A DNA stretch of 30,742 nt from Syntrophaceae bacterium UBA5619 (GTDB lineage Bacteria; Desulfobacterota; Syntrophia; Syntrophales; UBA5619), in assembly GCA_002424545.1 (NCBI GenBank), contig DIKL01000050.1:1-30742 (forward strand), given 5' to 3'. Positions 1-30,742 of the stretch are shown here, piece after piece; the stretch's first letter is position 1, and each line of letters starts with the position of its first letter. The notes under the pieces are model-generated. The model did not search any database. It saw only the letters and a program-made list of their open reading frames with translations, and was not told the DNA's origin. A program made the translations under genes and the position numbers.

Positions 1-280
1 ATGATGGAAATCAGAAGCGGGAGAAAGTAAATCGTGGAAACGACAATGCCGCCAATACATATCTTGTCAATCCAGTGATTGCAGAGATATCTCTCCTCCC
101 AGTCAGTTGATACAATGAAATGCCGAAAGCGTTCGAGTGGGCTCTTTTTCGCCGTGATTCCGCAATGCGTGATCCTGGGTTGCCTGATTGCTATGGATGC
201 CGCTCGTGTCGGAAATGCTGTCATTGTGTTCATTATTTTGTCCTTATCGTGCCGTTTTGGTCAGTAGAATTCTATTGCAT
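1..280. other. Non-coding or unassigned left edge
   Basis: This stretch lies downstream of the leftward lexA-type gene. Short overlapping open frames occur on the plus strand (79-267 and 120-383), but their translations are Cys- and Ile-rich without recognisable domains, and one runs antisense into lexA. I see no tRNA, terminator or repeat that I can support. Confidence 0.5.
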
Positions 281-868
281 CTACTGGTGGTACTTCCGGA
301 TCACCGCCGTAACAACACCTCCAAGTCGTAATTCCGTCTTGGGTCTGATGATGGGGTATTTTGGATTTGCGGCCTCAAGATAGACTTGGCAGTTTTCCTT
401 TTTGAAATACTTCATGGTCCAATCCCCATCCACCTCCGCGATCACAACGTCGCCATTCCGCGGCTGTTTGCCTCTCTCGATAATGACCAGATCTCCCTCC
501 ATGATGCCTTCTCCGATCATGGAATCACCGCTGACTTGCAACAAGAAAGATGCCTCCGGTTTTGTGATCAGGTATTCGTCCATAGACATGATGTCGCAGA
601 GAGCCTCTTCTTCAGGCGACGGGAAACCAGCCTGCACGGAACCGACCAATGGGATGGCAAACGAGCTTTTCTTGAATCTCAGATGGCGCTTTTCGTCCTT
701 TTCCAGAATCCCAGCTCTGATGAGCTTGTCGATCCAGAAATTGACGACGCTCTTGGATCTGACCCCGAGGAGGCCCACCATTTCCGAAAAGGACGGCATG
801 CGGCGGTTCTCCCGGAAGAAGGCGGCAATGAGTTTCTGGACCGATTGGAGGGTACGTTTTTCTTTCAT
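281..868 (-). CDS. lexA: LexA-type SOS repressor (S24 self-cleaving)
   Basis: Transcriptional repressor that self-cleaves when RecA is activated by DNA damage. The N-terminal ~65 residues form a winged-helix DNA-binding region. The C-terminal half is an S24/LexA peptidase: a cleavage-site Ala-Gly in VQAGFPSP, the nucleophile Ser in SGDSMIGEGI, and the general-base Lys in DWTMKYFKK. All three elements are intact, so the protein should be active. I chose the ATG at 868 (MKEKRTLQ) over the in-frame start at 949. The upstream 27 codons overlap the promoter and operator, and 868 begins just before the first helix. No SD is evident before 868. It sits alone on the minus strand at the edge of lower-GC DNA, so it could belong to a chromosomal SOS cassette whose other genes lie outside the window. 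It shows no link to the biosynthetic cluster. Confidence 0.88.
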   Translation of the reverse strand: MKEKRTLQSVQKLIAAFFRENRRMPSFSEMVGLLGVRSKSVVNFWIDKLIRAGILEKDEKRHLRFKKSSFAIPLVGSVQAGFPSPEEEALCDIMSMDEYLITKPEASFLLQVSGDSMIGEGIMEGDLVIIERGKQPRNGDVVIAEVDGDWTMKYFKKENCQVYLEAANPKYPIIRPKTELRLGGVVTAVIRKYHQ

Positions 869-942: not shown

Positions 943-972
943 TTTCCACATTCCAATCCCGTGGAGGCTATC

Positions 973-1095: not shown

Positions 1096-1155
1096 TTCCC
1101 TTTTACATTAAGCCTATACAAATCTTTCCAATCATTCATTACGAGGAGCTATCTC

Positions 1156-4724: not shown

Positions 4725-4733
4725 CAATCCTTC

Positions 4734-9787: not shown

Positions 9788-12700
9788 CTAAAAATCCTCA
9801 CTGATCTCCGCGGCGGAGCGGATAAACGCATCCCGCTCCCGCCGCTCTTCGGCACTCAGCACCGATAACCGGAGGTCGCCGATACGTATCCCGGCCTCGG
9901 CCACCATCGAACCGATGATCGCCCCGAAGGTCTCCTTCACCTGTTCCATCAGTTCCTTGGGAAAGACCTGCGCGTTGTAGCGAAACTCAATCTGCATCGG
10001 CTCACCCGGTTCAACGACAATCGTCAAGTCGTAGTTCGTCTGCTCGACGACCTTGACCTCCCCGATGCGAAATCCCAGCCGGTATTTTCGTTCGAGCCCG
10101 ATCAGATCCTGGGCGAGCGGATAGTTTTCGAAGACCAGTACGTGGTCCAGCAATCCCTGTTTCAGAGGGGTCACGGTCTGAACATCGGCAAGGGAACAAT
10201 AGTGGTGCGGTTCGGATTTCAACGCGTCGGCCTGAACATCCCGAATGAGCTGCGCGACCGTTTTTTCAGGTTTCAGCTTGATTCTAACGGGTACCGTGTT
10301 GATGAACAGGCCTGCCATTTTTTCGATGTCGGCTACTTGAGCCGGCCTGCCCGATATGGTCGCACCGAATACGACATCGTCGGAACCGCTGTATCGACTG
10401 AGAACGAGGCCCCAGACCGCCTGAATGACCGTATTCAGGGTGACCTGATGGCCGGCGGAAAAACGTTTCAGGGCCTTGCCGGTCTGGACGTCGATTTCCA
10501 AGATGACCGTTTCCGGGCAAAATTCCTTTGCCTCTTCTTGTATATCCCTTCTCGGCAGGACGGCCGAACGGTCGTACCCCCGGAGATAGTCCCTCCAGTA
10601 TTCGATGGTCGCCGGGCGGTCCAGATTCTCGATCCAGCGGATATAGGCTCCGAACGGCGCCGCGGGATCCGCATCCGGAACGCCGCCCCGCCTTAATGTA
10701 TCGTAGGTCCTAAAAAATTCGCTCATCAGGATGCCCGCACACCACCCGTCAATCAGGATATGGTGGTAGCTCCAGAGAACCTCAAAGGATCGCTCACCCT
10801 TTTTAAAGACATTGACCCGCATCGGAACCTTTGCGGTCGGATCAAATCCCTCATCCCGGTCCCGCTTTCTGGCTTTTGCAAGGCGTTTCGACTGCCGTTC
10901 CTCGGGAAGCGTGCTGATGTCCTCGTAACGGAAATCGACGCGTCCCTCCCGGACCACGACCTGAAGGGGACGGTCGGCGCCTTTGTGAATGAACACGGTT
11001 CTAAGGATGTCGTGCCGTAAAAACAGCATATTCCAGCAGGCCTCAAAAAGGGCCAGGTCGAGTTCCCCGTCGATCCCAAAGGAGATTTGCATGAAATAGG
11101 CGGCCAACCCGTCTTCGAGCATGGCGTGGAACAGCATCCCCTCCTGGAGCGGTGAAAGCGGATAGACGTCCTTGAGATTGGCGGGCGGAATTCCACATTC
11201 GGCAAGGATGCGGTCCAGGTCCCGCATCGTAAGGTCCTTGTACGTCAGGTCATGGGGGGTCAACTCGGAACCCGGGCGGGAAACACAGTGATCCATGATC
11301 CGTCGCAGCTCGTCACGGTAGGTCTGAAGGAATCTATGCACCGTCTCTTCCCGGTGGATCTTCATGCTGAAGCTCAGGCCGATTTTCAATCTGCCCTCGA
11401 TGACCACACCCTCGATTTCAATCTCGCTAGGCCGCTCAAACAGACCGCTGATCAAATTCTTGACAGGGGTCTCTTCGATAGAAAACCTGCCCCGCCCTCC
11501 GACATCAAAGCTGCCGAGGTAATTGAAGAGGATCCGTGATCTCCGATTGAAAGGCATTCCGGTGCCTTCCGCCACGGGCGATAGGTATTTCAGGACGCCG
11601 TAGCCTACACCTCTGTTCGGTACGCGCCTCAATCCCTCCTTGACCTGTTTGATCTGTATGCCCGGCTCCTCGGATTCCGCAATATCAACGATGACCGGAT
11701 AGATGCTCGTGAACCAACCCACGGTTCTCCCGATATCGATGTCCGCAAAGAGCGGTTCCCTGCCGTGCCCTTCCAGGTCGATGAATCCCTTCTCCGATCC
11801 GTAGCACCGTTTCATGGCCCTGCCGAGAGCCGTCAGCAGCAGGTCATTGACCTCGGTATGGTAGGCGCGGTTCGCTTTCGTCATCAACGCCAGGGTCTCC
11901 TCGCCGTCCAACTCCACAAAAACAGTCCTGGCGTCTTCGTATCGATTCGCCGTTCCCTCGAAATCGGGTGGTATCGCCAGCGCCTCCGTTTCTTCCAACT
12001 GCCTCCAGAAAGGTATCTCGGCGAGCAGTTTGGCGTCGGCGCCGTACCGGGCGATTTTTTCCGCCCATGCCTTGAAAGAATCGGTCTTTGGCGGGAGGGA
12101 CGGTGTTGCGCCCGAAAGGGCCTGCTCGTAACCGATGTTGAGATCCTCCAACAGGATCCGCCAGGATACCCCGTCCATCGCCAGATGATGAACAACGATG
12201 AGGAGCCGATCCTGGTCGTCTTGTCTGAAGAGGACCGCTTTCATCATCGGTCCGCTCTTCAGATCGAGGGAGGAGGGAACTTGCGAACACAGTCGTTCCC
12301 GTTCCCGCTCCTGGTTCTCTCTTACCTTCAGATCGACAACCGTGACGCCGAGGGGATAGTCCATACCCGCCATCCGTTGGACAGGGTCATCGCCGCCGCC
12401 TTGGAAGATCATCCTCAGGGCGTCATGATGCGCCTGCAACTTCAGCAGCGCCAACCTGAGCGCCGGTTCGTCAACCCGGTCTTGCGCGCGGAGCAATACC
12501 GCCTGCGCATAGTGATGACGCCCCTTGCCGTAGAGTCGGAAGAACCGCGCCTGAATAGCGGTGAGCGGGACTCTGCCGGTCACCACGCCCTGCTGCGGGA
12601 TGCGCTTTTTGGGGGAGAGCCTTTTCGCCAGCGCTCGAATGGTAGGCGTTTCGAAAACATGGCCAATTTCGAGTGTGAGCTGATGCTGATTGAGGCGAGA

Positions 12701-15700
12701 CAGAATCTGGATCGCTTTGATGGAATCCCCGCCCAGGGAGAAATAATTGTCGAGGACGCCAATCTCGTCCCGGCGAAGCACATCTTTCCAAATACCGACC
12801 AGCAGCGCCTCATGCTCCGTTTGCGGACCCGCAAATTCCGTTTCATGCTTGAGATCTTCACCTTCAATGGTCAACAGGGCTTTGCGGTCCGCCTTCCCGT
12901 TTGACGTCAGAGGCATCTCCTGGATTCGCAAGAAACGCGACGGAATCATATAGTCCGGCAGGTGCTCACCCAGGCGGCCCCGCAATCCTTCGATATCGAG
13001 ATCCTGGAGGGTCACCAGATAGGAGCAGAGGAACCTGTCTCCTGCCTCGTCCTCCCGGACAATTACCGCGGCCTGTTCGATTTCCGGCTGTCGCAGCAGG
13101 ATATTCTCGATTTCGCCAAGTTCTATCCGGTTGCCGCGAATCTTGACCTGATGATCCAATCTTCCCAGATACTCCACATTCCCGTCAGCCATCCATCGGC
13201 ATAAATCTCCGCTTTTATATACCTGCCGGCCCTCCTGAAAGGGGTGCGGAATGAATTTCTCGGATGTCAATTCGGGATTGTTCAGGTAACCGCGGGCCAG
13301 ACCGTCTCCGCCGATCCAGAGTTCCCCCGGAACGCCCACCGGCACCAGATTCCCATATCGGGTATCGACGATATAGAATTCGATGTTGTCAATCGGTTTG
13401 CCGATGGGCACCACGTCGCCGACCTCTTCGGTGGGGCAATCATAGTAGCTTACGTCTACCGTCGCCTCGGTGGGACCGTAGAGATTATGGAGCGTTATCC
13501 CTCGGGTTCTGCCCAGAAGGCGGTTGAACAACTCCACGCAATGAGCCCCCAGCGCCTCGCCACTGGAGAAAACCTGCCTCAAGCTTTTCAACAACGGCAC
13601 CCTGTTTCCCGGATCTGCGGACAGGTACTCCAGAAAAACGCTCAGCATCGAAGGAACGAAATGCATCTTCGTCACGCCGAACCGATGCACCGCCTCCGTG
13701 ATCGCTCCCGGGTCCTTGTGGCCTCCCGGCGCAAGCATACAGACGGATGATCCGTACCACGACCACCAGAACAGTTCCCACACCGATACATCGAAGGTAA
13801 ATGGGGTCTTCTGCAAAATGACCCCGTTCTTCTCCAGCGAATATTTCCGCTCCATCCATCCGAGGCGGTTCACGACCGAGCGATGTTCGATCATCACCCC
13901 CTTGGGATTGCCGGTGGAGCCTGAGGTGTACAGGACGTATGCCAAGTTTCGGCTTCCGGCCGTTCGGGAAGGATTGCTCTTCATTCCCTGCTTGATGCCC
14001 CTGATATCGACACTTTCAACGCCCTCCAACCCGACGCCATCGGTCAGAACCGTTTTGCAACCGCTGTTCCGGACCATGTAGAGCGCCCGTTCCCGGGGAT
14101 ACGAGGGCTCGATGGGCAGATAGGCGGCCCCTGATTTCAGAATGCCGAAGAGTCCAATGATCATCCACTCAGAGCGATCCAGCATGATGCCCACGATGTC
14201 GTCCGGCTTGACGGCGTGCCGTTTTCGCAGATAGTGGGCCAGCCGGTTTGCCTTTTCGTTCAATTCACGATAGGTCAGACAAGCCTGTCCGCAGATCACC
14301 GCCCGGTTATCGGGGGTTTTTTGCACCTGTTCCTCAAAGAGGTCAACGATCGTCACGTCCGTCCGATAAGGATGGAAAGTGGCATTGAAATCCTTCACCA
14401 GATGCCGCTTTTCGCCCTCGCTCAGGATTTCGACGGCATGCATCCTCCGGTCGGGATCAACGATGATTTGATCCAGGATATTCAGAAAACAGGAGAGGCA
14501 TCGTTCCGCTGTTTCCCGCCGGAAAAGATCCGTTGCGTATTCCAGGGAGATGTTCAACTCACGGCCGGAATCCGCGATATCGAGGGTCATATCAAAAATG
14601 GAGGTTTCCGTGCTGCAATTGAGCTCCGTAAAGGTGACGCCTCCGGAGGAGACGGAGGACCCCTCCTGGGTCTCATAAACGAACATGGTATCGAAGAGGG
14701 GATTGCGGCTCATATCTCTGTCCGGAGAGAGCCTTTTCACCAGATCTTCGAAAGGATATTCCCGGCGGTCATAGGCATCGAGCACCTCTCTTTTCACCTC
14801 ATCGAGGAACGCGCGGAAGGCCTTCGTTCCTTCAGGCCGGCACCGGACCGGTACGGTATTGACGAACATGCCGATGGAAGATCCGAACTTCTCTGTCCCC
14901 CTGCCGTCATAGGTCGTTCCCACAACCACATCCTCATTTCCCGTCAGTTTGTGAAGCAGCAGGAAATAAGCGGCAAAAAGGATCATATGCAGCGAAACGC
15001 CGGCGGAGCGCGCCGCCGACCTGACCTTTCGGGTTGCATCGGAATCGAGCTTGCGGAAGATCTTGTCGCCTCGAAAGGTCTTGACCGGCGGGCGTAAAAA
15101 ATCGGCCGGGAGGTCGAGCGGCGGAACGGCCGACGAAAACTTTTCCCCCCAGTAGCGTTCGTGCTTTCCATATTCGTCGCCGGCGAGATAAGCCTGTTCC
15201 ATTTCCACGTAATCCCGATAGGAAGCCGTCGGTGGGAAGACCGTTTCCCCGCCGTACCGCTTGATCAATTCGGACAGGAAGAGATACCCGGATATGCCGT
15301 CGAAGATGATGTGGTGCGCATCGACGACCAGCAGGTGGCGGTCCGCAGACAGCCGCACGAGAGCGGCCCGGAGCAGAGGCGGTTTGGCGAGATCGAACGG
15401 TCTGATGCACTCCCGCACGATCGCATCGATATTCCCGGATGGGCGCTCAAAATAGGAAATGTTGAAGTCCAGGCGATTGCAGACTTGCTGCACCAGTGTG
15501 TCGTCCATGATGACGAAGCCCGCTCTCAGGCTTTCCTGCCGGTCGATGATCGCCCCAAAGCAGGCCTCAAGCCTCCCCCGGTCCAGGGCGCCGTCGATCG
15601 CCAGGGCGCCACTGATGTGATAGGCCAATTCTCCGCCTTTCGTCTGGCTGAGCACATAGATCCTTTTCTGCGCGGACGACATCGGATAAGTCATCCCGGA

Positions 15701-18700
15701 GGACGATTCTTCGAGAGACTCTTCAGCACCGCTTGAACGAGGGACGCGCCCTTTCATCCCCTCGAACAGCCCCCCGACCCGCATCTCTTCAACGCTCTCA
15801 TGGATGGCCTGCACGAGGGTTTCGATGTCCGCGTCGGTGTGCGCCGTCGAGAGGAAGCAGTTCCGCCCCTCCCAGATGTAGACCCCCCGGCACAGGAGGT
15901 GGTAGTACAGGAGCTCCTGGTCTCCCTTCACCCGAATGTGGAACAGCGAACCGAAATGGTCCATCCCGATCGGCAGCCCTTCGCCTTGAAAATAGCCGTT
16001 CAAGCGTGCCGCCAGCGCTTCGGTGCGCCGATTCAGGTTTTCCTGGAGGGAGGGACCCGACGCCTTGAGATGCCCAAGCACCGCATTGGCGCCCGCCATC
16101 GCCAGAGGGTGGTGGTTGAAGGTCCCGGCAATGAAGGTGTTCTCCCGCTCGGGAAAGGATCCGTCCCCGTAGTTCCACATTCCCCCGTCCACCGCATCGA
16201 GAAAACGGGCCTTGCCGGCGACGACCCCGATCGGGATGCCGCCGCCGACGATCTTGCCGTAGGTGACGATGTCCGCCCGGATCCCGAACCAGGCCTGGCC
16301 TCCCCCGGGGTGGATGCGGAACCCGATGATCATCTCGTCGAAGATCAGCGCGGATTCCGAAACGGTCGTAAGCTCCCTCACCCTCTCGAGGAAGGCCTTC
16401 GGCTGCAGGTCCGGCCTCCGGCTCTGCACCGGTTCCACGAGCACCGCCGCGAGCTCGCGTCCATGGGCTTCGATGAACCGGAGCGCCTCCTCTGTCCCGT
16501 AGTCGAGCACGTAGACGTCCTGCACCATGTCCGGCGGTGTCCCCGGAGACATCGGCGCGGCCGACCCCAGCGGACCGTCGTAGTCCTTCACGGCCAACAA
16601 GCCGTCGAAGTGTCCGTGATAGGAACTCGAAAACAGGGCAATTTTCCTCCTCCCGGTGACAGTCCGCGCAATCCGCACCGCCGCCATCACCGCTTCGGTC
16701 CCGGTATTGAAGAAGGCGACCCGCTCCACGCCGGTCAGCTCGTGGACCAGCGTTGCCGCTTTTCCGGCCAGTTCGGTCATCGGGCCGATCGGCGTCCCTT
16801 TGCGGAGTTCCTCCTGCAGCGCCGCCTGGACAAAGGGAGGGTTGTGTCCGAACAGGTAGACCCCGAAGCCCATCGTGATGTCCAGGTAATCCCTTCCGTC
16901 GATGTCAGTAAAGTGCGATCCCCCGGCCTTCTGCACGATGATCTGGTAGATCATCTCCTTCCATTCAGGCCGGAAGCCCGCGATGTTCCGCGTATTGGCG
17001 AATACGGGCCGGTACTTCTGCGTGAGCGCCTTCGACCCGGCCGTGAGCCCCGTGTAGCGTCCGACCAGTTTCTGCAGATGCCCCTTCTGGCGTGCGTTCA
17101 GCTCCAGCTTTCCCCGTCCCGTCACCCCCCGGTAGGCGACGTACTCCTCATGCCTCTTTGCCTCCACCGCGGGGCTCGGCGACGGGGCCTCCGGACCTGC
17201 TCCGCCGATCTGCCCCTTCCGCTCTCCCTCCCGGACCGGGGAGACCCGGAGGTCGCCGGTCCGTTGAGTCGACACGCCTTTCCCGGCGCTCCTCAAGGCG
17301 TTCAGTTGCTCGGACATCACCGTCAATTGCCGGTCCATCAGCTCGATCTGCCGGCCGATGATGCCCTCCGCCTCGCCGTCAACCCTTCCGGGCGGCAAAG
17401 CCCCGGCACCGGACAGGGACGCCTTGACCGGTGCTTGCTCAGGCGCCCCGTCGTCCGGCTTCGACTCCCGATTGATATAATCCACAACCTTGTTGAAGGT
17501 ATCGGTCCGGCTGTAAAACCAGCTCATCTGCAAATCCAGGCCGTAGGCCCGCTTGATCAGATCTTTCAGCCGCGCGATCATCAGCGAGGCAAATCCCAAC
17601 TCGAACAGGTTTGCGTCCCAGTCCTCCCGGCGAATCTCGATCTCCGACGCCTGAAACATCAAACTCCGGATCTCCGCTTCGATCCGTTCCCTTCGACCGG
17701 ACCGCGCCGGCTGGTCTTCGGTCCGGCCGATCACCGGCGTTTTTTCCTGATCATCCTTTACCACGCCGTCACTCCTTTCAGCGGGGCCGCCGTTTTCGGC
17801 GACCATCACGCACTGCATGGGGTTATCCTCCGAATCGTGGGGCAGCCCCTGATAATTCACTAGGGAAAAGCCCGCCTCTTCCAGGGCGGCTTTCCAGCCG
17901 AAAACGCTCAGGGAAGGACCATGGCCGATGCGGCGTTCGGGGTCCTCGAAGAGCCACCAGCCGCTCGTGAGCCCGAAGATCGCGTTGACGATCTCCTGGA
18001 AGATGGTGACCTCGTTCATGATCAGGACGCCGCCCGGCTTCAGCAATCTCCGGACCTGGCGCAGGGTATGGTCGATCCGCCGGGTCGCGTGCAGGACGTT
18101 CGAGGCGATCGCGATATCCCAGGCCGCCGGGGCAAATCCCTGGATTGCCGGATCTTCCTCGATGTCGAGCGTCTTGAACGTCATGAAGGGATGGCCGGCT
18201 CCGAATGTTCCCTGACCCTTCGCCGTAAAGGCCGAGGCGATGTCCGTGTAGCAATATTCCAGATTTCCGAAACCGTCGATCGCCCGCAGGACATGGGCGG
18301 TGGCGCTCCCCGTGCCGGCGCCGATCTCCAGGATCGACAGACGCGCCGAAGGAGATTCGTCCGCCGCGCGGGCCACGCATTCCTTCACCCGCTGTCCGAC
18401 GACCCGGTTGAAAAAGTCCTGGATCTCGTTGTGCGTGTAGAGATTCTCGACGAGTTCCATCGACCCGTTCGGAAAGAGCGCCTCGACAGGACTCATCCGG
18501 CCGGTGATGACGGCGGCGTATGGATCCAGGCAGCGGGCGATGGAAGCCACGGTCGCCGCCATTTCAGGATGCTCCCCGACAATCTCCCGCTGAAGTTCGC
18601 CCGCGGCCCGGGTGATCTCCGGAACCCCCCAGTCGGCGCCCGGCGCCAGGACGGCGACCTCGCCGTCGTTCAGCGAGATGAATCCCCCGTTTGTCAGCAT

Positions 18701-18916
18701 GATCAGCAGCAGATCGAAGAGCCGTCCGTATTCGGGGGACAGCGCCATTTTTTTCTTGAGGGCCTGCACACGGTGCCGCTCTCCCGGGGCGGACAGAACC
18801 CCGAGCTCCTTGAACGCCCTCAGGATATAGAGTCTTCCCAGCCGGTTGAGCTTGTCATAAACCATCGCGGCTTCGCGGGCATCGAGATCAGTCGCATCGT
18901 GATCACGGGCCATCAT
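9788..18916 (-). CDS. Hybrid PKS-NRPS: cMT-ACP-AMT-C-A(Ser)-PCP-E-C
   Basis: 3042-residue assembly-line protein. Order: C-methyltransferase (~1-385; SAM loop LEIGAGTG near 200); ACP (~410-485; LGFASL around Ser444, with the usual Asp before Ser replaced by Ala); coiled-coil segment (~518-547); class III PLP aminotransferase (~600-1050; PLP Lys888 in YGKIVGGG); C (~1075-1510; HHIIFDG); A (~1520-2010), whose hand-read code DVWHFSLVDK equals the known Ser code; PCP (Ser2065 in LGGDSI); E (~2110-2550; HHLAMDGVSW, EGHGRE, VGWFTS); and a final C (~2580-3042; YHHILIDG) that ends at the usual C-A linker without an A domain. This is the McyE layout minus its KS-AT, which is encoded by the preceding gene. 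It should methylate a beta-keto thioester, convert it to a beta-amine, and add D-Ser. The start has GAGGAG 4-5 nt upstream; a second ATG follows directly. Confidence 0.95.
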   Translation of the reverse strand: MMARDHDATDLDAREAAMVYDKLNRLGRLYILRAFKELGVLSAPGERHRVQALKKKMALSPEYGRLFDLLLIMLTNGGFISLNDGEVAVLAPGADWGVPEITRAAGELQREIVGEHPEMAATVASIARCLDPYAAVITGRMSPVEALFPNGSMELVENLYTHNEIQDFFNRVVGQRVKECVARAADESPSARLSILEIGAGTGSATAHVLRAIDGFGNLEYCYTDIASAFTAKGQGTFGAGHPFMTFKTLDIEEDPAIQGFAPAAWDIAIASNVLHATRRIDHTLRQVRRLLKPGGVLIMNEVTIFQEIVNAIFGLTSGWWLFEDPERRIGHGPSLSVFGWKAALEEAGFSLVNYQGLPHDSEDNPMQCVMVAENGGPAERSDGVVKDDQEKTPVIGRTEDQPARSGRRERIEAEIRSLMFQASEIEIRREDWDANLFELGFASLMIARLKDLIKRAYGLDLQMSWFYSRTDTFNKVVDYINRESKPDDGAPEQAPVKASLSGAGALPPGRVDGEAEGIIGRQIELMDRQLTVMSEQLNALRSAGKGVSTQRTGDLRVSPVREGERKGQIGGAGPEAPSPSPAVEAKRHEEYVAYRGVTGRGKLELNARQKGHLQKLVGRYTGLTAGSKALTQKYRPVFANTRNIAGFRPEWKEMIYQIIVQKAGGSHFTDIDGRDYLDITMGFGVYLFGHNPPFVQAALQEELRKGTPIGPMTELAGKAATLVHELTGVERVAFFNTGTEAVMAAVRIARTVTGRRKIALFSSSYHGHFDGLLAVKDYDGPLGSAAPMSPGTPPDMVQDVYVLDYGTEEALRFIEAHGRELAAVLVEPVQSRRPDLQPKAFLERVRELTTVSESALIFDEMIIGFRIHPGGGQAWFGIRADIVTYGKIVGGGIPIGVVAGKARFLDAVDGGMWNYGDGSFPERENTFIAGTFNHHPLAMAGANAVLGHLKASGPSLQENLNRRTEALAARLNGYFQGEGLPIGMDHFGSLFHIRVKGDQELLYYHLLCRGVYIWEGRNCFLSTAHTDADIETLVQAIHESVEEMRVGGLFEGMKGRVPRSSGAEESLEESSSGMTYPMSSAQKRIYVLSQTKGGELAYHISGALAIDGALDRGRLEACFGAIIDRQESLRAGFVIMDDTLVQQVCNRLDFNISYFERPSGNIDAIVRECIRPFDLAKPPLLRAALVRLSADRHLLVVDAHHIIFDGISGYLFLSELIKRYGGETVFPPTASYRDYVEMEQAYLAGDEYGKHERYWGEKFSSAVPPLDLPADFLRPPVKTFRGDKIFRKLDSDATRKVRSAARSAGVSLHMILFAAYFLLLHKLTGNEDVVVGTTYDGRGTEKFGSSIGMFVNTVPVRCRPEGTKAFRAFLDEVKREVLDAYDRREYPFEDLVKRLSPDRDMSRNPLFDTMFVYETQEGSSVSSGGVTFTELNCSTETSIFDMTLDIADSGRELNISLEYATDLFRRETAERCLSCFLNILDQIIVDPDRRMHAVEILSEGEKRHLVKDFNATFHPYRTDVTIVDLFEEQVQKTPDNRAVICGQACLTYRELNEKANRLAHYLRKRHAVKPDDIVGIMLDRSEWMIIGLFGILKSGAAYLPIEPSYPRERALYMVRNSGCKTVLTDGVGLEGVESVDIRGIKQGMKSNPSRTAGSRNLAYVLYTSGSTGNPKGVMIEHRSVVNRLGWMERKYSLEKNGVILQKTPFTFDVSVWELFWWSWYGSSVCMLAPGGHKDPGAITEAVHRFGVTKMHFVPSMLSVFLEYLSADPGNRVPLLKSLRQVFSSGEALGAHCVELFNRLLGRTRGITLHNLYGPTEATVDVSYYDCPTEEVGDVVPIGKPIDNIEFYIVDTRYGNLVPVGVPGELWIGGDGLARGYLNNPELTSEKFIPHPFQEGRQVYKSGDLCRWMADGNVEYLGRLDHQVKIRGNRIELGEIENILLRQPEIEQAAVIVREDEAGDRFLCSYLVTLQDLDIEGLRGRLGEHLPDYMIPSRFLRIQEMPLTSNGKADRKALLTIEGEDLKHETEFAGPQTEHEALLVGIWKDVLRRDEIGVLDNYFSLGGDSIKAIQILSRLNQHQLTLEIGHVFETPTIRALAKRLSPKKRIPQQGVVTGRVPLTAIQARFFRLYGKGRHHYAQAVLLRAQDRVDEPALRLALLKLQAHHDALRMIFQGGGDDPVQRMAGMDYPLGVTVVDLKVRENQERERERLCSQVPSSLDLKSGPMMKAVLFRQDDQDRLLIVVHHLAMDGVSWRILLEDLNIGYEQALSGATPSLPPKTDSFKAWAEKIARYGADAKLLAEIPFWRQLEETEALAIPPDFEGTANRYEDARTVFVELDGEETLALMTKANRAYHTEVNDLLLTALGRAMKRCYGSEKGFIDLEGHGREPLFADIDIGRTVGWFTSIYPVIVDIAESEEPGIQIKQVKEGLRRVPNRGVGYGVLKYLSPVAEGTGMPFNRRSRILFNYLGSFDVGGRGRFSIEETPVKNLISGLFERPSEIEIEGVVIEGRLKIGLSFSMKIHREETVHRFLQTYRDELRRIMDHCVSRPGSELTPHDLTYKDLTMRDLDRILAECGIPPANLKDVYPLSPLQEGMLFHAMLEDGLAAYFMQISFGIDGELDLALFEACWNMLFLRHDILRTVFIHKGADRPLQVVVREGRVDFRYEDISTLPEERQSKRLAKARKRDRDEGFDPTAKVPMRVNVFKKGERSFEVLWSYHHILIDGWCAGILMSEFFRTYDTLRRGGVPDADPAAPFGAYIRWIENLDRPATIEYWRDYLRGYDRSAVLPRRDIQEEAKEFCPETVILEIDVQTGKALKRFSAGHQVTLNTVIQAVWGLVLSRYSGSDDVVFGATISGRPAQVADIEKMAGLFINTVPVRIKLKPEKTVAQLIRDVQADALKSEPHHYCSLADVQTVTPLKQGLLDHVLVFENYPLAQDLIGLERKYRLGFRIGEVKVVEQTNYDLTIVVEPGEPMQIEFRYNAQVFPKELMEQVKETFGAIIGSMVAEAGIRIGDLRLSVLSAEERRERDAFIRSAAEISEDF
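17276..17365 (-). repeat. Coiled-coil repeat, copy within the cMT-ACP-AMT-NRPS
   Basis: Encodes residues ~518-547 (GRQIELMDRQ…SEQLNALRSAGKG) between the ACP and the aminotransferase. It matches the segment at 19118-19209 in the end of the KS-AT gene: about three quarters of bases agree by eye, in the same orientation. The pattern of Ile/Leu/Met spacing suggests an amphipathic helix. Confidence 0.75.
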
Positions 18917-22000: not shown

Positions 22001-22087
22001 GCCGGCATTTTCAACCTCGCGAAGCCTCTTTTGCGTCGCCTTGAGCGTTTTGTAGAGCGCCTTCAATGTATCGATATCTTCGCTCAC
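19028..22087 (-). CDS. Type I PKS KS-AT (malonyl-specific), split module
   Basis: 1019-residue polyketide synthase half-module that extends an acyl chain by one malonyl unit. Residues 1-28 are a charged helical N-terminal docking segment. The KS (~30-455) has the triad Cys205 (DTACSSS), His340 (EAHGTG) and His380 (NIGHLEAAAG). The AT (~535-840) has TGQGSQ, nucleophile Ser655 in GHSIGEY, and HAFHS near 752, the signature of malonyl-CoA selection. A post-AT linker (LPNYPFQRKRCW) and a coiled-coil repeat follow; no KR, MT or ACP is present. Those activities (cMT, ACP, AMT) start the next gene, so the pair forms one module. Malonyl choice fits with the methyl group being added by the cMT. The start is GTG, overlapping the upstream TGA as GTGA, with AGAGG upstream; translation is coupled to the preceding NRPS. 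Confidence 0.94.
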   Translation of the reverse strand: MSEDIDTLKALYKTLKATQKRLREVENAGREPIAVVGMACRFPGGANTIERYRSLLERGEDAIREVPRDRWDEESYCDPDPDVPGKVATNRAGFLREPIDGFDSAFFHLSPKEVPSMDPQQRLLLEVCWEAFENAGIDITTLKGSRTGVFCGIANSDYAVAHLRSGDPRKIDGYSVIGTALSAAVGRISYLFGFEGPNMALDTACSSSLVAVHLACRSLRAGESEIAIAAGVNLILTPEGQIGFSKLGALSPDGCCKSFDDSADGYGRGEGCGLIILKRLSSAERDGDSVQAVIRGTAVNQDGRTNGFTAPSGLSQEKVIRQAIEDATLRPDEIGYVEAHGTGTLLGDPIEMESIGKVYSPGRDMGNPLYVGSVKANIGHLEAAAGIAGIIKAVLMLESGRIFPQIHFNRPSRHIAWKDLPVKIPLEWMPWPRGAAPRAAAVSSFGFSGTNAHAILQEGPAAVPEKGREAERSHHILNLSAPDRNGLRELIVRYQEYLADTDNRIGDICYTASVGRVRFPHRISVVGATKEEMRARLDARLGEQDSEPATPHEIGGKSDRRIVFLFTGQGSQYRHMGADLYRTNPVFQAALDRCDELLRPHGERSLIALLYGDEGTDAELNEARHTQPVIFAVEYALAKLLESWGIKPSLVMGHSIGEYVAATIAGIFEPEDALGLVAARGRLVQSLPQNGGMAVIAADEERVSGALEGCRGKVSIAAVNAPRNTVVSGEKEAIDELCARFRKQRVASHLLNVSHAFHSRLLDPVMEAFGTLAVGVRYSPPRLPIMADTTGRLGGAELATPGYWTRQMREPVRFCDGMRAIGEAGYGIFVEVGGTSMLTSLGRQCLPDRSGLWLSTLGSRDLSANLRPGRIEGQSDWQPILDCLAGLYKAGCDIDWEAFDHPYPRKRVLLPNYPFQRKRCWIDLPGPRETGAAPRKVEPSGTALREAGALQSREGEGEGGDLIGRQLELIRRQRRMLSEQLNVLRGAGKGAPTEPFSRHRASPNGNRDGNGRARGQKPL
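19118..19209 (-). repeat. Coiled-coil repeat, copy at the C-terminus of the KS-AT protein
   Basis: Encodes residues ~960-990 (IGRQLELIRRQ…SEQLNVLRGAGKG) after the AT domain. It is the direct-repeat partner of 17276-17365, about 1.85 kb away. It could result from duplication when a single module gene split, and may serve as a docking helix. Confidence 0.75.
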
Positions 22088-25000
22088 GCCCTTGCCTCTT
22101 CTTCCGTCGGCATGTTCCTCCCTTCACCAATCGTCTCCGCCGGCGAATGGGGCGTCGCGCCGAATCGTCTTTTGAACCCGCGCAGCGTTTCCTCTTGGAT
22201 TCGATAATCTTCGCAACGCAGACCGACCACTCCGAAGCCAAGCCGATGAAGAAGACGGTAGTGCCGCAGAGACGTCTCCCCGTCGACCTCCCCGATCGTC
22301 GGTTTCAGATCGGTATAAAGGCGGGAAAGCAGGCCGGAGAGAACGCAGCCGGTGATCGTGCGGGGCTTGAAGGCGAGAAGGGACAGCCTCTTCGTCTCTC
22401 TCAGGGACATTTCCACGGCCTCCGGCAGATACAACAAGCAGGTCGCGGGGGCGGGCAAGCGAAGCAGATCGCCTTCCGTAAACAGGATATCCCCGTCCGT
22501 CTCGATGCGCCGCACCGCGCGCTCCGTCGCGAAACACCGCTGACCCGATTCTTCGACGATGATCGTCCCCGGTTTGATCCGGGCCACATCGATGATCTCC
22601 GGAACATTCGTCGCGCCGATGATCAGCGAAGACTCATAGAACGGGGGCGGCAGTTCATCGGAGGCCTTCATGATCTCCAGTGCATCCCCCCTGAAGCCGC
22701 AGTCGACAAGTTCCCGGCTCAACACGGCCGCAAAGAGGAGATTGTTGTAAGCGTCGGCCATGATGATCTTTTTCGGGTGCGGCATGCATTCGAGCAGCAG
22801 GCAGAGGGTAGCGGCCCCGATCGTGTTGAGCCCGACCAGTCCGACGGTTTCATCCTCAAGACGCCGTCCCGAAATCCTCAGCGTCTTTTCCAGGGTCATC
22901 GCCATCGCCGCCGCCACCGTGGCCTGGCCGGTCGTAATGGAAGGATGGTGATGGTTCGCCGAAACATGTTCGACCACATCGAAGCCGTCATCCGTCGCCA
23001 GCGGGAGATGCCCGGTCAGCGAGACCGTCTTCGCACCGATATGGCCGGCCATTTCCAGCGCCTCGACGACATTGTTCCGCAGGGACGCCTTGTCGCTGAA
23101 TATCTCGGAAGCGAATCGCGGCAGGACGATGGAGGCAATGCGGCCCAGGAAGGTGCTCGTGATGCTGCTCAGAATCGGTCGATTGCCGCAGAACCCTTTG
23201 ATGATTTCATCCTTCCCGAGTCCGGTCTGATCGATCAGGTCATCGGGAAGGCAGATGATCGCGGCGGCATCGACCGGACCGATTCTCCCCGCATCGAAGA
23301 GAGACATCAGCGGCCGTCTTTCGATCGTCATGGTCGGAGAGAGCGGCGGCGGCGTGTCCGCCGACGCGGAGGCCCGGACCGCCGGCATCGGCTTTTGTCT
23401 TTCGATCGCCGCGGTCAATCCGGCGACCGTGGGATTCAGAAAGAGGAGTTTCACCGGCACCTTGACATCGAGTTCGGTCGATATCCGCGATATCAGTTGC
23501 AGGGACCGCAGGGAATTCCCTCCCGACTCGAAGAAATTGTCATGAATTCCGATGTCCGGCCTTCCGATGATCTCCCGCCAGAGGACGAGCAGCCCTTGTT
23601 CGAGATCGTTGCGCGGCTGGACCCGCACGTCGTCCGGGCGACGGCCCGCGGAGGCGGGATCCGGAAGGGCCTTTCGGTCCACCTTCCCGTGGACCGTCAG
23701 CGGAAGGGCATCCATCTGAATCAGATAATGGGGCGTCATATGCCCGGGGAGAAATCGTCCGAGATGAGACCTCAGATCGGCCTGTTCCAACGGCCCGGTG
23801 GCCGTAAAATAGGCGACCAGCTCCTTCGAATCCCTGCCTCCCGCCAGGACCACGGCCTCCTTGACCGCGGCGTGCCGAAGCAGGGCATTCCTGATCTCCC
23901 CCAATTCGATCCGGTACCCTCGGATCTTGACCTGATCGTCATTTCTTCCCAGCCATTCGATCGTTCCATTGGGCAGCCATCTGCCGATATCCCCGGTTCG
24001 ATACAGTCTTTCGTTCGCCCGAAAAGGATGGGCGACGAACCTCTCCGCGGTCAATTCCGGCCGGTTGAGGTACCCCCTGGCCAGTCCGGGCCCGGAAAGG
24101 CATATTTCACCGGGGACACCGATGGGGACGAGATTCAGCGAACCGTCGAGAATATAAACCGCCGCGTTGGCGATCGGCCTCCCGATCGGCACGGCTTTCC
24201 GATAGTCCCCCTCGGGTGATACGCGTTCGATCGTGGCACAGACCGAAAATTCCGTCGGACCGTAGGCGTTGAAGTATCGCTTGCTGCGGCTGAGAAAAAC
24301 CGCGTCCCCGGCGTTCGGGGCTTCTCCGGCCGTGACGATCGTCTTGACGGTGTGAAGGCGTTCCTTGTCGAGCACATTGAGATAGACGGGGGGCAGCGTC
24401 ACATGCGAAACCCGTTTTTCTTCCAGATAGCGAACAAAGGCCAGCGGGTCATAGATCGTTTCCTTTGCAATGGTCACGAGGGCGGCGCCGGCCAGCAGCG
24501 CCATGAATATCTCCGAAAGCGAGGCATCGAACGAAGCCGACGCGAACTGCAGCACGCGGTCGGTCTCCGATACCTCGAAGACCCTGATCTGGTGCAGGAC
24601 CATGTTGACAAAACCGGAATGCTCGATCAGCACCCCTTTGGGCTGCCCCGTGGAACCGGATGTATAGATGATGTACGCCGGCGAGTCGGGGGACGAACGG
24701 CGCGAAAGCGCCGCCGCCGGACCCGACGGATCGTACGGGGGGGCAAGGCGCTCGATCTTCAGGGCCTCCACCGAGGCGGGAAGCGGCCCGATCGCTTCGG
24801 CGAGAGCGCGCCGAACGAGCAGGATCCGGCAACCGCTATCCTCCAGCATATGGTCGATTCTTTCCTTCGGATAGGCCGGATCCAGCGGCAGATAGACCCC
24901 GCCGGCCATCAGGATCCCGAGCAACCCGATCACGGACCATTCGCCCCGGTCGACCATCAACCCGACGGTTTCCCCGGGTTCGATCCGATATTTCGCAACC

Positions 25001-28000
25001 AGCGTCGCGGCCAGTCCGCGGGCCCGCTCGTTCAGCTCGCGGTAACTGAGTTCTCCTTCTTCCAAAACAACCGCCGGGCGATCGGGCTTTTCGGCGGCGA
25101 TTGCCTCGAAGAGATCCACGATCGTCTGGTCCGCCGGATAGGGATGCCGGGTATCGTTGAATGTCTCGGTCAACAGCCGCTTTTCCTCGGGCCCGAGAAT
25201 CTCCAATGTCCCGATCTCCGCGGACGCGTCCATGAGCACGCCCTCCGCCAGCGTGGCGATATGGGAAGCGATCCGCGCGATCGTCGCGTCCCGGAACAGA
25301 TCGGTGTTGTAATTGATCCCGATCCGAAGACCGCCGGCGGACGGCTCGACTTCGAACGTCAGGTCGAACCGGCATGTGCCGGATTCCACCTCCACGGCCG
25401 TCATCCGCAGACGATCCCTGTCCGCGGGCACACGACTGTCCGCGTCCCGATACACCAGCATGACGTCGAAAAGCGGGGCCCGGCCCGGATCCCTTTCCAG
25501 GCCGAGCTCGTCGACCAGACGGTCGAACGGGTACTGCTGATGATCGTATGCATCGATCACCGTCCTTTTCACCTTTTCGATGATCGCGGCAAAGGAATCA
25601 TCCGGACGGAGATCGTCCCGCAGGGCCAGGGTGTTTGCGTAGAAGCCGATCTGGTCCTGCAGATCGGGATGGTTCCGGCATGCCACCGGAGAGCCGACGA
25701 TGATGTCTTCCCGGCCGGTATACCGATGGAGGAGCGTCTTCAGCAGGGCCAGCAGGATCATGAACAGGCTGGCGTCATGCTTCCGCGCAAGCTCCGCCAG
25801 CCCGGCCGTCAGCCGCTCATCGAGATCGAAGAAACTGGTCTTGCCCCGGTAGGTCTGGAGCAGGGGGCGGGCATCGTCCGACGGCAAATCCAGCGGCGCC
25901 GATCCCGCTCCGGCCAGTTTCTCGTGCCAATAATGGGCCGTTTTGGAGGTCTCATCCGCGGCGAGCCTCGCGTTCAGCCATGCGGCGTAATCCCGGTACT
26001 GCACCCTCAGCGGCGCAAGCGGATTGGGTTTCCCCTCCCGGAAGGCGCCATAGAGGGCCATCAGATCACGTTCCAGAATGTCGAAAGACCAGGCATCGCC
26101 GATGATATGGTGTATGTTGAAGAAGATCGCGTGCCGGCCCGGCGTCAGGGCGAGGACCGCGACCCTCAAAAGCGGCCCCCGGGAAAGGTCGAAGGGAAGA
26201 ACCGCCTGGGCGCGGGCGTAGTGGATTGCCCGTTCCTCGGCGTCGGCCGCCCCGGTCAGATCGATCCGCTCGACGGAAAAGCCGGCAAGGGAATCCGCCG
26301 TCTCCCGAATCTTCTGACGGGGCTCCCCTTCGGTCGCGAAGAAGGTGGTGCGCAGGGATTCGTGCCGGTCGATCAGCGCATGAAAAGCCTTCTCCAGCGC
26401 CGGGACGTCAAGATTCACTTCCACCCTGTAGAGGCCCGGCAGATTGTAGGCCACGGATCCCTCATCCATCCGGTCCAGGACCCAGAGCCTTCGCTGCGAC
26501 GGCGAGACCGCGTAATCGGGCTGAGGTTCGAGCGGTGCGATCCCCGCAAAATCGGATCCCGGCCGCTCCTCCAAGAGGGCGGCGAGACTCCGGATCGTCT
26601 GGTTCGCGAAAAATGTCCGGAGGCTGATCTCCACTTCCATCTCGCGGTAGATCCTCGCCAGGAGCCGCGTTGCGGTGAGCGAGTGGCCGCCAATCTGGAA
26701 AAAGGGACTGTTCACCCCGACCTTCTTCAAGTGCAGCACCTCCCCCCAGATCCTGGCCAGCGTCTCTTCCCGTTCGTTCGCCGGGGCTTCGTAGGGAATC
26801 TCCTCGTAGATCAGCTCTTCCGGTTTTGGAAGCGCCTTCCTGTCGATTTTCCCGTTGATATTGAGCGGAAATTCATCGAGCCGGACGTAAAAGGACGGAA
26901 CCATGTACGAGGGCAGCGACCGCCGCAGCCAGGCGCTGATCTGCCCCGCGTCGGTCGCCCTTTTTTCCGTGTAGTAGCAGACGAGGGTGTTCTCGTTGTC
27001 CGGAGATCGATGGCTGACCACCACCGTCTGATCGATCAAATCGCCTCCCATAAGGGTTTTTTCGATCTCGCCCAGCTCGATCCGGATGCCGTTCACCTTC
27101 ACCTGGGTGTCGAGCCGGCCGATGAATTCGATCGTCCGGTCCGTCAGATACCTCCCGATGTCCCCGGTTTTGTAAACGATATCGCCGGAATCGCCGGTGA
27201 GCGGATTGGGAACGAAGCTCATCCCCGTCAGCTCGGGGTCGCCGTAGTAGCCCTTCGTCCGGAACGGGGTCTTGATGAAGATGTCGCCGATCTCGCCCGG
27301 CTCGCAGAGCCGGCCGCCCTTGAGAATCAGCACGGCGGTATTCGCGATCGGCCGACCCGCGGGGATCATCGCGTTGGGATTGGACGGTCGCTGACCGATG
27401 GAGAAAAAGGTCTTCACGAGCGTCGTTTCCGAGGGCCCGTAGAGATTCACCAGGGTAACCCGCTCCCCGACCCGGTCCATCCAGCGGATCACATCCTTCC
27501 CGTAGAGGGGTTCGCCCGCCATCAGGACGTATCGCAGCGCCGGCAGAATCTCCCGTTCGCCGCCGCCGTCCCTCTCCTCGAGTTCCCGGGTCATCATCCG
27601 GAAGAGGGACGGAACGCAATGAACCAGCGTGATCTCCTCATCCTCGATCCACCGGAGGAGTTGTTTCACGTTCGATCGGGCCCCCTTTTCCGGGATGCAG
27701 AGCGTTCCGCCGGTGATCAGCGGAACGAAGATGTCCCTGAGGCTTGCGTCGAAGGTGATCGGCGGCAACTGCGTGACCCGGATGTTCTCGTCGAAGCCAA
27801 ACTCCCCCGCCTCCCAGTGGACGAAATGGCTGAGGCTTTTGTAGCACCCCTCAATCGCCTTGGGAACGCCGGTCGAACCGGAGGTGTACATGATGTAACA
27901 ACCGTCGTCGGGATCGGGAAGGTCCCCCGCCTCCGCGGCAAAGATTCCCGCGGCGCCCGTTTTTTCCGGCGCCCGGAGCGTCGGATGAAGGTCCCGTCCG

Positions 28001-28407
28001 ATCAGAACGACCGGGCAGGCTCGGTCGTCGAAACCCGCCGCGGCGAGCCGCCGGCCCGTTTCTTCGATGGCCGCATCGGCGATGACGACCCGCGGAGGGG
28101 TCTTGCGCAGCATGTATTCGAGTCGTCTGTCCGGGAACGACAGATCCAGCGGGAGGAAGAGCCCGCCCGCCTTCATCACTCCGATGATCGCGGCAACATA
28201 GGCGATGCCGCTTTCGAGCGGCACGCCGACGATGACGTCCCGTCCGACTCCCGCCCGGCGGAGCATCGCCGCGATTTCATCGCTCGCCCGGCTCAAATCC
28301 CGGTAAGAGATTCCATTCCCCGCCTGATGGACGGCCTCCCTTTGGGGAAACCTCCCGACCGTTTCCTCAAAGACCGTATGGACGATTTTTCTGTTCACTG
28401 ATGCCAC
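22084..28407 (-). CDS. NRPS: A(iso-Asp-like)-PCP-C-A(Tyr-like)-PCP-AAR-like domain
   Basis: 2107-residue NRPS. A1 (~10-535; MYTSGSTG near 171, NGKIDRKAL near 516) has hand-read code DARHLALLVK, close to the McyB (methyl)aspartate code DARHVGIFVK. PCP1 carries Ser576 (GGHSL). C (~630-1060) has HHIIGDAWS, with Ala for the usual Gly after Asp. A2 (~1085-1590) reads DASTVAAVCK, a known Tyr code. PCP2 has Ser1632 (GGNSL). Residues ~1680-2090 resemble cyanobacterial acyl-ACP reductase, with a Rossmann loop GLVGLNTIGAAT near 1853; this is not the usual SDR-type R domain or a TE. With no C domain before A1, the protein could be an initiator or could receive a chain from the orphan C domain of the 9788-18916 protein. 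The start is GTG with GGAGGTG ~10 nt upstream; another GTG lies 9 nt further in. The gene begins 45 nt after the hydrolase stop. Confidence 0.94.
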   Translation of the reverse strand: MASVNRKIVHTVFEETVGRFPQREAVHQAGNGISYRDLSRASDEIAAMLRRAGVGRDVIVGVPLESGIAYVAAIIGVMKAGGLFLPLDLSFPDRRLEYMLRKTPPRVVIADAAIEETGRRLAAAGFDDRACPVVLIGRDLHPTLRAPEKTGAAGIFAAEAGDLPDPDDGCYIMYTSGSTGVPKAIEGCYKSLSHFVHWEAGEFGFDENIRVTQLPPITFDASLRDIFVPLITGGTLCIPEKGARSNVKQLLRWIEDEEITLVHCVPSLFRMMTRELEERDGGGEREILPALRYVLMAGEPLYGKDVIRWMDRVGERVTLVNLYGPSETTLVKTFFSIGQRPSNPNAMIPAGRPIANTAVLILKGGRLCEPGEIGDIFIKTPFRTKGYYGDPELTGMSFVPNPLTGDSGDIVYKTGDIGRYLTDRTIEFIGRLDTQVKVNGIRIELGEIEKTLMGGDLIDQTVVVSHRSPDNENTLVCYYTEKRATDAGQISAWLRRSLPSYMVPSFYVRLDEFPLNINGKIDRKALPKPEELIYEEIPYEAPANEREETLARIWGEVLHLKKVGVNSPFFQIGGHSLTATRLLARIYREMEVEISLRTFFANQTIRSLAALLEERPGSDFAGIAPLEPQPDYAVSPSQRRLWVLDRMDEGSVAYNLPGLYRVEVNLDVPALEKAFHALIDRHESLRTTFFATEGEPRQKIRETADSLAGFSVERIDLTGAADAEERAIHYARAQAVLPFDLSRGPLLRVAVLALTPGRHAIFFNIHHIIGDAWSFDILERDLMALYGAFREGKPNPLAPLRVQYRDYAAWLNARLAADETSKTAHYWHEKLAGAGSAPLDLPSDDARPLLQTYRGKTSFFDLDERLTAGLAELARKHDASLFMILLALLKTLLHRYTGREDIIVGSPVACRNHPDLQDQIGFYANTLALRDDLRPDDSFAAIIEKVKRTVIDAYDHQQYPFDRLVDELGLERDPGRAPLFDVMLVYRDADSRVPADRDRLRMTAVEVESGTCRFDLTFEVEPSAGGLRIGINYNTDLFRDATIARIASHIATLAEGVLMDASAEIGTLEILGPEEKRLLTETFNDTRHPYPADQTIVDLFEAIAAEKPDRPAVVLEEGELSYRELNERARGLAATLVAKYRIEPGETVGLMVDRGEWSVIGLLGILMAGGVYLPLDPAYPKERIDHMLEDSGCRILLVRRALAEAIGPLPASVEALKIERLAPPYDPSGPAAALSRRSSPDSPAYIIYTSGSTGQPKGVLIEHSGFVNMVLHQIRVFEVSETDRVLQFASASFDASLSEIFMALLAGAALVTIAKETIYDPLAFVRYLEEKRVSHVTLPPVYLNVLDKERLHTVKTIVTAGEAPNAGDAVFLSRSKRYFNAYGPTEFSVCATIERVSPEGDYRKAVPIGRPIANAAVYILDGSLNLVPIGVPGEICLSGPGLARGYLNRPELTAERFVAHPFRANERLYRTGDIGRWLPNGTIEWLGRNDDQVKIRGYRIELGEIRNALLRHAAVKEAVVLAGGRDSKELVAYFTATGPLEQADLRSHLGRFLPGHMTPHYLIQMDALPLTVHGKVDRKALPDPASAGRRPDDVRVQPRNDLEQGLLVLWREIIGRPDIGIHDNFFESGGNSLRSLQLISRISTELDVKVPVKLLFLNPTVAGLTAAIERQKPMPAVRASASADTPPPLSPTMTIERRPLMSLFDAGRIGPVDAAAIICLPDDLIDQTGLGKDEIIKGFCGNRPILSSITSTFLGRIASIVLPRFASEIFSDKASLRNNVVEALEMAGHIGAKTVSLTGHLPLATDDGFDVVEHVSANHHHPSITTGQATVAAAMAMTLEKTLRISGRRLEDETVGLVGLNTIGAATLCLLLECMPHPKKIIMADAYNNLLFAAVLSRELVDCGFRGDALEIMKASDELPPPFYESSLIIGATNVPEIIDVARIKPGTIIVEESGQRCFATERAVRRIETDGDILFTEGDLLRLPAPATCLLYLPEAVEMSLRETKRLSLLAFKPRTITGCVLSGLLSRLYTDLKPTIGEVDGETSLRHYRLLHRLGFGVVGLRCEDYRIQEETLRGFKRRFGATPHSPAETIGEGRNMPTEEEARA
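22130..23370 (-). other. AAR-like (acyl-ACP reductase-like) C-terminal domain of the NRPS
   Basis: From memory of the Synechococcus AAR sequence, several blocks line up: HIGAKTVSLTGH with the HGIDISALGGF block; SITTGQATVAAAM with the RFTTGNTHTAYV block; ETVGLVGLNTIGAAT with ATVAVVGATGDIGSA; KPGTIIVEESGQR with KQPCVLIDGGYPK; and CLLYLPEAVEMSL with the CFAEAMLLEF block. The AAR nucleophile Cys aligns with Thr1948 here; the nearest Cys is Cys1958. The NAD(P) fold therefore looks preserved while the acyl-enzyme chemistry is uncertain. Confidence 0.65.
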
Positions 28408-30059: not shown

Positions 30060-30742
30060 TCACGACCGTGAAATTTCGTTCCGGATCAACGTTTCCAAAG
30101 CCTCCGCCTCCAGCGCATCGATGTAGCCGAATTCGTCGTTGCCCTTTTCGGCCGTCTTCGTTTTGTTGTCCGACGGCGCATGTTCGGGATCGATCTCGAG
30201 GAGCTCGGCCAGGTGCCGAGACAGATCGTCCACCGAAGGGTAGTTGAACAGAAGCCCCACCGGCAGCGGGATCCCGAGGCCCGCGGAGAGGAGGTTCCGC
30301 AGCTCCACGGACATCAGCGAATCGAGTCCCTGCTCCATCAGGGGCCGGTCGGTTCGGATCGGCCCGGCGTCGGCGTGGCCCATCACCCTTCGCGCGGCGT
30401 CGATCACGCAGGAGCGGAGGATTCCGACCCTGTCTCCGGGGGCGGCATCGACGATCTTAGCGCGGATGGCCGGTTTTGCGGATCGGCGGTCGTCGGTCCC
30501 TTTTTCGAGCAGACAGGAAAGAAATCCCGCATCGCCCCGTGGGAAAACGCGGCTTGCGTAAAGCTCCCAGTCGATGTTCGCGATGAACATCTGCGTCGAA
30601 TCGCAATCAAAAACAGCTTCGAACAAGCCGGGAGCCTCGGCAAGACGGATGGGTTTGACTCCCCTCCGCACCGACGCGGCCAGCGTTTCCGGATGCACGG
30701 CGGCCATGCCGATCCCCTCCCAGGGGCCCCAGTTGATGGTGG
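30060..30742 (-). CDS. 3' end of a modular type I PKS: KR C-terminus, ACP, docking tail (partial)
   Basis: The gene enters from beyond the right edge; its 5' part is not visible. The first readable residues, TINWGPWEGIGMA, are the conserved end of a ketoreductase domain. About 100 residues later comes an ACP with an intact phosphopantetheine site (EQGLDSLMSVEL). After a charged linker the protein ends with an acidic helix (YIDALEAEALETLIRNEI), the pattern of PKS C-terminal docking tails. The presence of KR and the position at the head of the visible operon indicate that it delivers a beta-hydroxy or further reduced polyketide chain. The N-terminal docking helix of the KS-AT protein (22087-19028) is the natural partner, by analogy with McyD to McyE. 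The last ACP belongs to a complete upstream module not contained here. Confidence 0.92.
   Translation of the reverse strand, partial: TINWGPWEGIGMAAVHPETLAASVRRGVKPIRLAEAPGLFEAVFDCDSTQMFIANIDWELYASRVFPRGDAGFLSCLLEKGTDDRRSAKPAIRAKIVDAAPGDRVGILRSCVIDAARRVMGHADAGPIRTDRPLMEQGLDSLMSVELRNLLSAGLGIPLPVGLLFNYPSVDDLSRHLAELLEIDPEHAPSDNKTKTAEKGNDEFGYIDALEAEALETLIRNEISRS

Follow-up and report, generated by a model that had tools for sequence, protein, structure and literature searches.

The subject of this analysis is the C-terminal domain, here called X, of the nonribosomal peptide synthetase (NRPS) P0001 of Syntrophaceae bacterium UBA5619, encoded on contig DIKL01000050.1 (assembly GCA_002424545.1); the whole stretch of 30,742 nucleotides that was analysed is referred to as the window. 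It was found that X is a well-supported divergent branch of the young TAD family of the carmabin type and not an unprecedented fusion; the unusual C-terminal domain pointed out in an earlier note on this DNA is confirmed in part, and the note's interpretation of it is supported in part. We lean towards X being a chain terminator of the carmabin type, with an acyl-ACP reductase (AAR) fold and an NAD site and in the thioesterase's place, which would release the product as a C-terminal primary amide. P0001 and its domains are arranged as follows.

22084 to 28407, reverse strand: P0001, NRPS of 2107 aa with the order A1-PCP1-C-A2-PCP2-X (open reading frame (ORF) and domain scans)
26848 to 28383, reverse strand: A1, at the extreme N-terminus with no preceding C domain, code DARHLALLV
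26572 to 26763, reverse strand: PCP1
25171 to 26520, reverse strand: C domain
23662 to 25110, reverse strand: A2, code DASTVAAVC
23404 to 23592, reverse strand: PCP2, which presumably carries the substrate for X
22150 to 23340, reverse strand: X domain, TAD family with AAR fold, residues about 1690–2086

In the Pfam scan, P0001 gave two AMP-binding, one condensation and two PP-binding matches and nothing beyond the second PP-binding domain. The X fragment alone reached no Pfam family (best value 0.2), its sole NCBIfam match up to E 10 was a weak one to PigE, in the AAR-like front half (4.7e-7), and the models for R domains of the short-chain dehydrogenase/reductase (SDR) type and for PF00975 thioesterases did not match X in these scans. 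The roughly 410 residues after PCP2 are thus neither a thioesterase nor an SDR reductase, as the earlier note had held. The fold search gave the carmabin TAD as far closer to X than any AAR, with 39–41% identity and the same fold over nearly the whole length (fragment 2..395 against TAD residues 1908..2301 in the structural alignment), while AAR was the second-best fold match at 17% identity. The note's idea of an AAR-type domain in the place of a thioesterase or R domain therefore holds for an AAR-like domain, by fold, by sequence and by the PCP directly upstream in 62 of 80 loci, but not for the AAR family proper, and the carmabin TAD is a domain of the same type, for which the note knew no precedent. 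X has the AAR fold, and the AAR nucleophile, Cys294, aligns with Cys2021; when the fragment was scanned against NCBIfam, the cut-off of the AAR model TIGR04058 was not reached. The identities given above do not support placing X in the AAR family proper. An SDR or shikimate dehydrogenase assignment, the latter named in the note as one that would tell against its reading, was rejected by the domain scans and the fold search, in which shikimate dehydrogenase-like folds matched no better than AAR. Ornithine cyclodeaminase was absent among the 50 fold entries listed, an absence which by itself excludes nothing, and gave no Pfam match.

As for the TAD family, X is related to it in sequence and fold across the whole domain, carries the reactive cysteine (carmabin Cys2238) as Cys2021, and lies at the C-terminus after a PCP. 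A scan with one genome per species gave 95 related stretches, the best 80 of which were kept as loci; in these, X is preceded by a PCP in 62, an A domain in 4, an AT domain in 1, no matched domain in 9 and the start of the contig in 4, and it ends the ORF in 79. Homologues beside carrier proteins are thus common; the note had named their complete absence as a result that would tell against its reading. The TTGH histidine, the second Gly of GxGxxG and the DDSxPHC motif, which are conserved in TADs according to this analysis and not by a published definition, are missing from the X of the window; as far as the sequence goes, their loss marks it as a divergent TAD branch and is not grounds for exclusion.

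The residues considered as nucleophile, and those of the NAD site, are the following.

22345 to 22347, reverse strand: Cys2021, predicted acyl-enzyme nucleophile, equivalent to carmabin Cys2238 and AAR Cys294 (alignments)
22534 to 22536, reverse strand: Cys1958, the candidate of the earlier note (alignment)
22816 to 22833, reverse strand: GLNTIG (1859–1864), dinucleotide loop, in which Asn1861 replaces the second Gly of GxGxxG
22753 to 22755, reverse strand: Asp1885, where the second Rossmann strand ends

For comparison, 10 X-bearing cyanobacterial genomes were searched with the AAR model, and 7 had a match over the cut-off; Cys294 (295 in one) sits in FACFAE in all 7 AARs. It falls on Cys2021 in the MAFFT alignment of 169 rows and in two hhalign runs that were set so as to include the C-terminus (a local run stopped short of the cysteine), and the structural alignment above places Cys2021 (fragment position 332) on carmabin Cys2238. 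Cysteine occupies this position in all 158 rows with a residue (162 rows, 4 gaps); at the position of Cys1958 it is found in 143 of 160 and replaced in 17, so Cys1958 is not the family's essential cysteine. The earlier note had aligned the AAR nucleophile with Thr1948, which was a misalignment, and had offered Cys1958 instead; the analysis corrects which cysteine to test, namely Cys2021. Since the rows include near-duplicates, some proteins and loci being identical, these counts are of sequences and not of independent lineages. The NAD site is likewise conserved across the family, with G1859 in 160/160, G1864 in 159/160 and D1885 in 159/160 rows, and Asp1885 suggests, from its position in the sequence, a preference for NAD over NADP.

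PMC9594044 states that Cys294 of AAR receives the acyl chain ahead of hydride attack, which would make an acyl-enzyme at Cys2021 the natural first step. Fold, family, place after PCP2 at the protein end, and the conservation of Cys2021 and its alignment with Cys2238 and Cys294 are tool-based results; the acyl transfer, ammonia as nucleophile, the release and the order of modules are inferred. The assembly line would most likely run from the polyketide synthase (PKS; P0005 and genes upstream of it) through P0002 and P0003 to P0001, with X as its last station. PCP2 would bring the finished peptidyl thioester to X, Cys2021 would take over the peptidyl chain as an acyl-enzyme, and ammonia, the most likely nucleophile, would attack the Cys2021 thioester and free the C-terminal primary amide. 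An AAR-like reductase would use the same acyl-enzyme differently, NAD(P)H reducing it so that the peptide leaves as an aldehyde or, after further reduction, as an alcohol. This outcome appears unlikely: the described pathways with this domain type (carmabin; HcaD and VatR as one paper describes them) are tied to amides and not aldehydes, the carmabin TAD is far closer to X than AAR is, and Asn1861 disrupts the GxGxxG motif, which is kept in 7/7 AARs.

The window's X belongs to a distinct subclade. The tree was built by a quick method from 94 of the 169 available rows (77 of the 80 loci, the window, 9 proteins and 7 AARs), with 32 of 91 inner branches left open; the window group (8 rows used) is set apart by a branch with an SH-aLRT of 100, and its stem is long (0.48). 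Two altered motifs were located.

22924 to 22926, reverse strand: Gln1828, in TTGQ; His in 152/152 rows outside the subclade (alignment)
22534 to 22554, reverse strand: EESGQRC (1952–1958); DDSxPHC in most of the family (alignment)

Residue by residue, the subclade also has Asn1861 (Gly in 151/152 other rows), Glu1952 and Glu1953 (Asp in 149/151 and 150/151), Gln1956 (Pro in 148/151), Arg1957 (His in 129/151) and Leu1803 (Ser in 150/152). The Gln, Glu and Arg set also occurs in the deeper member P0019, which retains the Gly, and the sister loci L009 and L019 retain the His, the Gly and the second Asp. Within the group, X is conserved like C and A2, below KS and AmT, and is thus not decaying. 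Judged from the sequence, these substitutions may have altered the chemistry. A tentative, on the whole doubtful, extension is that the subclade is a re-tooled TAD (His, Asp and His to Gln, Glu and Arg, with a GxNxxG loop) whose release chemistry differs from the carmabin type, the chain being reduced or captured by some amine that is not ammonia, with the cluster's glutamine-dependent asparagine synthase as a possible source, and which would end an McyE-like line in a linear capped peptide, not a macrocycle. The subclade offers a natural substitution set in which the nucleophile is retained while conserved positions change (His to Gln, Gly to Asn, Asp to Glu, His to Arg), which makes it directly testable how an NAD-site domain could make an amide.

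The position of X in the assembly line was assessed from the neighbouring genes, listed here.

30060 to 30740, reverse strand: P0005, the C-terminal part of a PKS with its ACP and tail, truncated where the contig stops
28453 to 30063, reverse strand: P0004, alpha/beta hydrolase, which also precedes the X gene in L007 and L008
19028 to 22087, reverse strand: P0002, KS-AT, whose start overlaps the stop of P0001 by 4 nt
9788 to 18916, reverse strand: P0003, MT-ACP-AmT-C-A-PCP-E-C with an orphan C at its end
9890 to 11170, reverse strand: terminal C domain of P0003, presumed partner of A1-PCP1 of P0001
8020 to 9669, reverse strand: P0006, export ABC transporter of the cyclic-peptide type (TIGR01194, over cut-off)
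5838 to 7709, reverse strand: P0007, glutamine-dependent asparagine synthase (TIGR01536, over cut-off), with counterparts in the clusters of G100 and G101
4020 to 4727, reverse strand: P0009, Asp/Glu racemase family, with counterparts in the clusters of G100 and G101

The cluster recurs in three relatives: L006, L007 when combined with further contigs from the same genome (G100), and L008, where a single contig of 79 kb (G101) carries it nearly whole, in the order five PKS genes, hydrolase, A-PCP-C-A-PCP-X, an extra A-C-A gene, KS-AT-MT-ACP-AmT-C-PCP-E-C, asparagine synthase and racemase. In the last of these synthases no A match was found between C and PCP. In the window and both fuller relatives, a C domain with no A behind it closes the P0003-type protein, and the X protein opens with an A domain that no C precedes; the upstream PKS proteins of the window, L007 and L008 resemble one another in their tails, and the KS proteins resemble one another at their starts, where they have a coil-like stretch in common. 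The pairing of orphan C with A-first protein, together with these likenesses, makes PKS, P0002, P0003 and P0001-X the most economical order, in which X is terminal although its gene precedes the KS gene. The alternative is that X does not release at all, either modifying the PCP2-bound intermediate in cis or being a silent remnant, with the chain passing from PCP2 to the KS of P0002. KS-AT does come directly after the X gene in the window, L006 and L007, and in L008 with one gene in between; several otherwise conserved X residues are altered in the subclade; and discrete X genes lie in the middle of the cluster, with more NRPS genes behind them, in L045, L052 and L058, with X followed by C in one ORF in L064. 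Such a route would leave the terminal C of P0003 without an acceptor and the upstream PKS without a KS for docking, it sits badly with the alike PKS tails and the common coil-like KS starts, and a silent remnant would not be as conserved as C and A2; we regard it as improbable.

Release of an amide by X remains the preferred reading, and several results weigh against it. The X gene lies directly before KS-AT with a 4-nt overlap, an arrangement that also allows a hand-over from PCP2 to KS; plain ammonolysis does not need the conserved NAD site; the subclade has lost the histidine at 1828, which makes the amide outcome less certain here than for the family, and also the second Gly of GxGxxG; and amide formation by TADs itself derives from PDB titles and from one paper's statement made by position, the carmabin TAD paper not having been found in the open-licence PMC literature. 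In addition, among 26 genomes examined, for which 26 of the 80 loci were chosen, 7 have a PF00975 match on the contig of X at a distance of less than 20 kb, namely G112 (at 19.3 kb), G113 (weak, with internal stops), G114, G120, G123, G125 and G130; within the X protein itself it was not found in these 26 genomes.

The 80 loci carry 15 phylum labels among those on the tree, with members in Planctomycetota, Chloroflexota, Bacillota and the genus Rickettsia, so that a domain type known from cyanobacterial terminal-amide pathways proves widespread. In L009, L012 and L020, one A-PCP-C-A-PCP-X protein is the only match to the NRPS/PKS queries in about 21 kb, and in L016 C-A-PCP-X lies amid ORFs carrying PF00975. 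X was not found in 99 relatives of the window's genome (100 genomes searched, 65 of them with a completeness of 90% or more and a contamination of 5% or less), in keeping with either a sporadic gain or a stray contig, the window assembly having 7.6% contamination. Discrete X genes downstream of a KS-AT-PCP gene were seen in L041, L045, L052 and L058 (Robbsia, Erwinia, Hahella), with an LLM monooxygenase gene (TIGR04020) in between in L045; in Robbsia, the next genes encode a penicillin amidase and a CN_hydrolase-NAD_synthase fusion. Two Rickettsia records, one of them the complete chromosome of an insect endosymbiont, have a discrete X just after an ORF with NRPS/PKS domains (L082:9956-11164 and L084:416-1630, the latter short and with a PCP only). 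L064 (3-4070) holds the sole X of the 80 that is not ORF-terminal, in one ORF reading X-C-TauD-type dioxygenase.

Among the neighbours, asparagine synthase is present in 3/3 clusters in which that stretch is present (window, G100, G101); the flanks of L006–L008 stop before it, and in G101 and G100 it lies further on. Across the 80 loci, homologues numbered 0 for asparagine synthase, 0 for the racemase and 3 for the hydrolase (L007, L008, L009), so that X is not generally associated with glutamine amidotransferases of the asparagine-synthase type in this survey. In L009, a sister locus, a P0004 homologue lies after the X gene, and the A-C-A gene after X in L008 (11229-15260) has no PCP match and a start like that of the X gene, as in a tandem copy of its front. 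The A-domain codes, read from the alignment, are DARHLALLV for A1 in 3/3, DA(S/W)T(I/V)AAVC for A2 in 4/4, and for A3 DVWHFSLVD in the window and DFWNIGMVH in two relatives; we take A2 to be Phe/Tyr-like, and A3 to be Ser-like in the window and Thr-like in the two relatives. Adjoining the cluster, window positions 281-3989 hold three genes, one LexA-like (judged by eye), one ParA-like and one with DUF697; the GC content of the first 2 kb is 0.49, compared with 0.55–0.64 elsewhere in the window, possibly a mobile-element edge.

Compared with known systems, the assembly line may be of the microcystin/nodularin type, whose layout has an McyE-like KS-AT-MT-ACP-AmT-C-A-PCP-C, then an A-first NRPS, a racemase and an ABC exporter; the McyE-like part is split in the window into P0002 and P0003. 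The domain order agrees except for an extra E domain, the comparison being one of layout and not of mcy sequences, and no name of the microcystin/nodularin type occurred among the 120 matches listed of 3874 proteins passing. SDR-type R domains and PF00975 thioesterases share the place of X in such lines, but their models do not match it. The cyanobacterial AAR (TIGR04058; PDB 6jzq/u/y/z) resembles X in fold, in the position of the nucleophilic Cys and in the TTG motif; it differs in its low identity, in the use of NADPH (PDB title) and in the long branch separating the two on the tree, and the 7 fetched AARs have no NRPS fusion, with open frames of 341–366 aa. The thioester-reductase domains of PigE and TamH, described as AAR-like and acting on thioesters in natural-product pathways, are fused to a class III aminotransferase and not to an NRPS, unlike X, and the sequence match to PigE is weak. 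The terminal domains of HcaD (hectoramide B) and VatR (vatiamide), called amidotransferase or terminal amidation domains, follow the last PCP without a thioesterase, like X, and are cyanobacterial with other products, the likeness being one of description and not of sequence. Closest is the TAD of the carmabin pathway (PDB 9e4s, 9e4u, 9e4x, 9e50 and 9e56, released 2025-02-26), NRPS-derived like X, with the molecule named amino acid adenylation domain protein; it has Cys2238 at the place of Cys2021 and the NAD-site Asp, and it reads TTGH, GLGSVG and VDDSGPHCF where the X of the window reads TTGQ, GLNTIG and VEESGQRCF.
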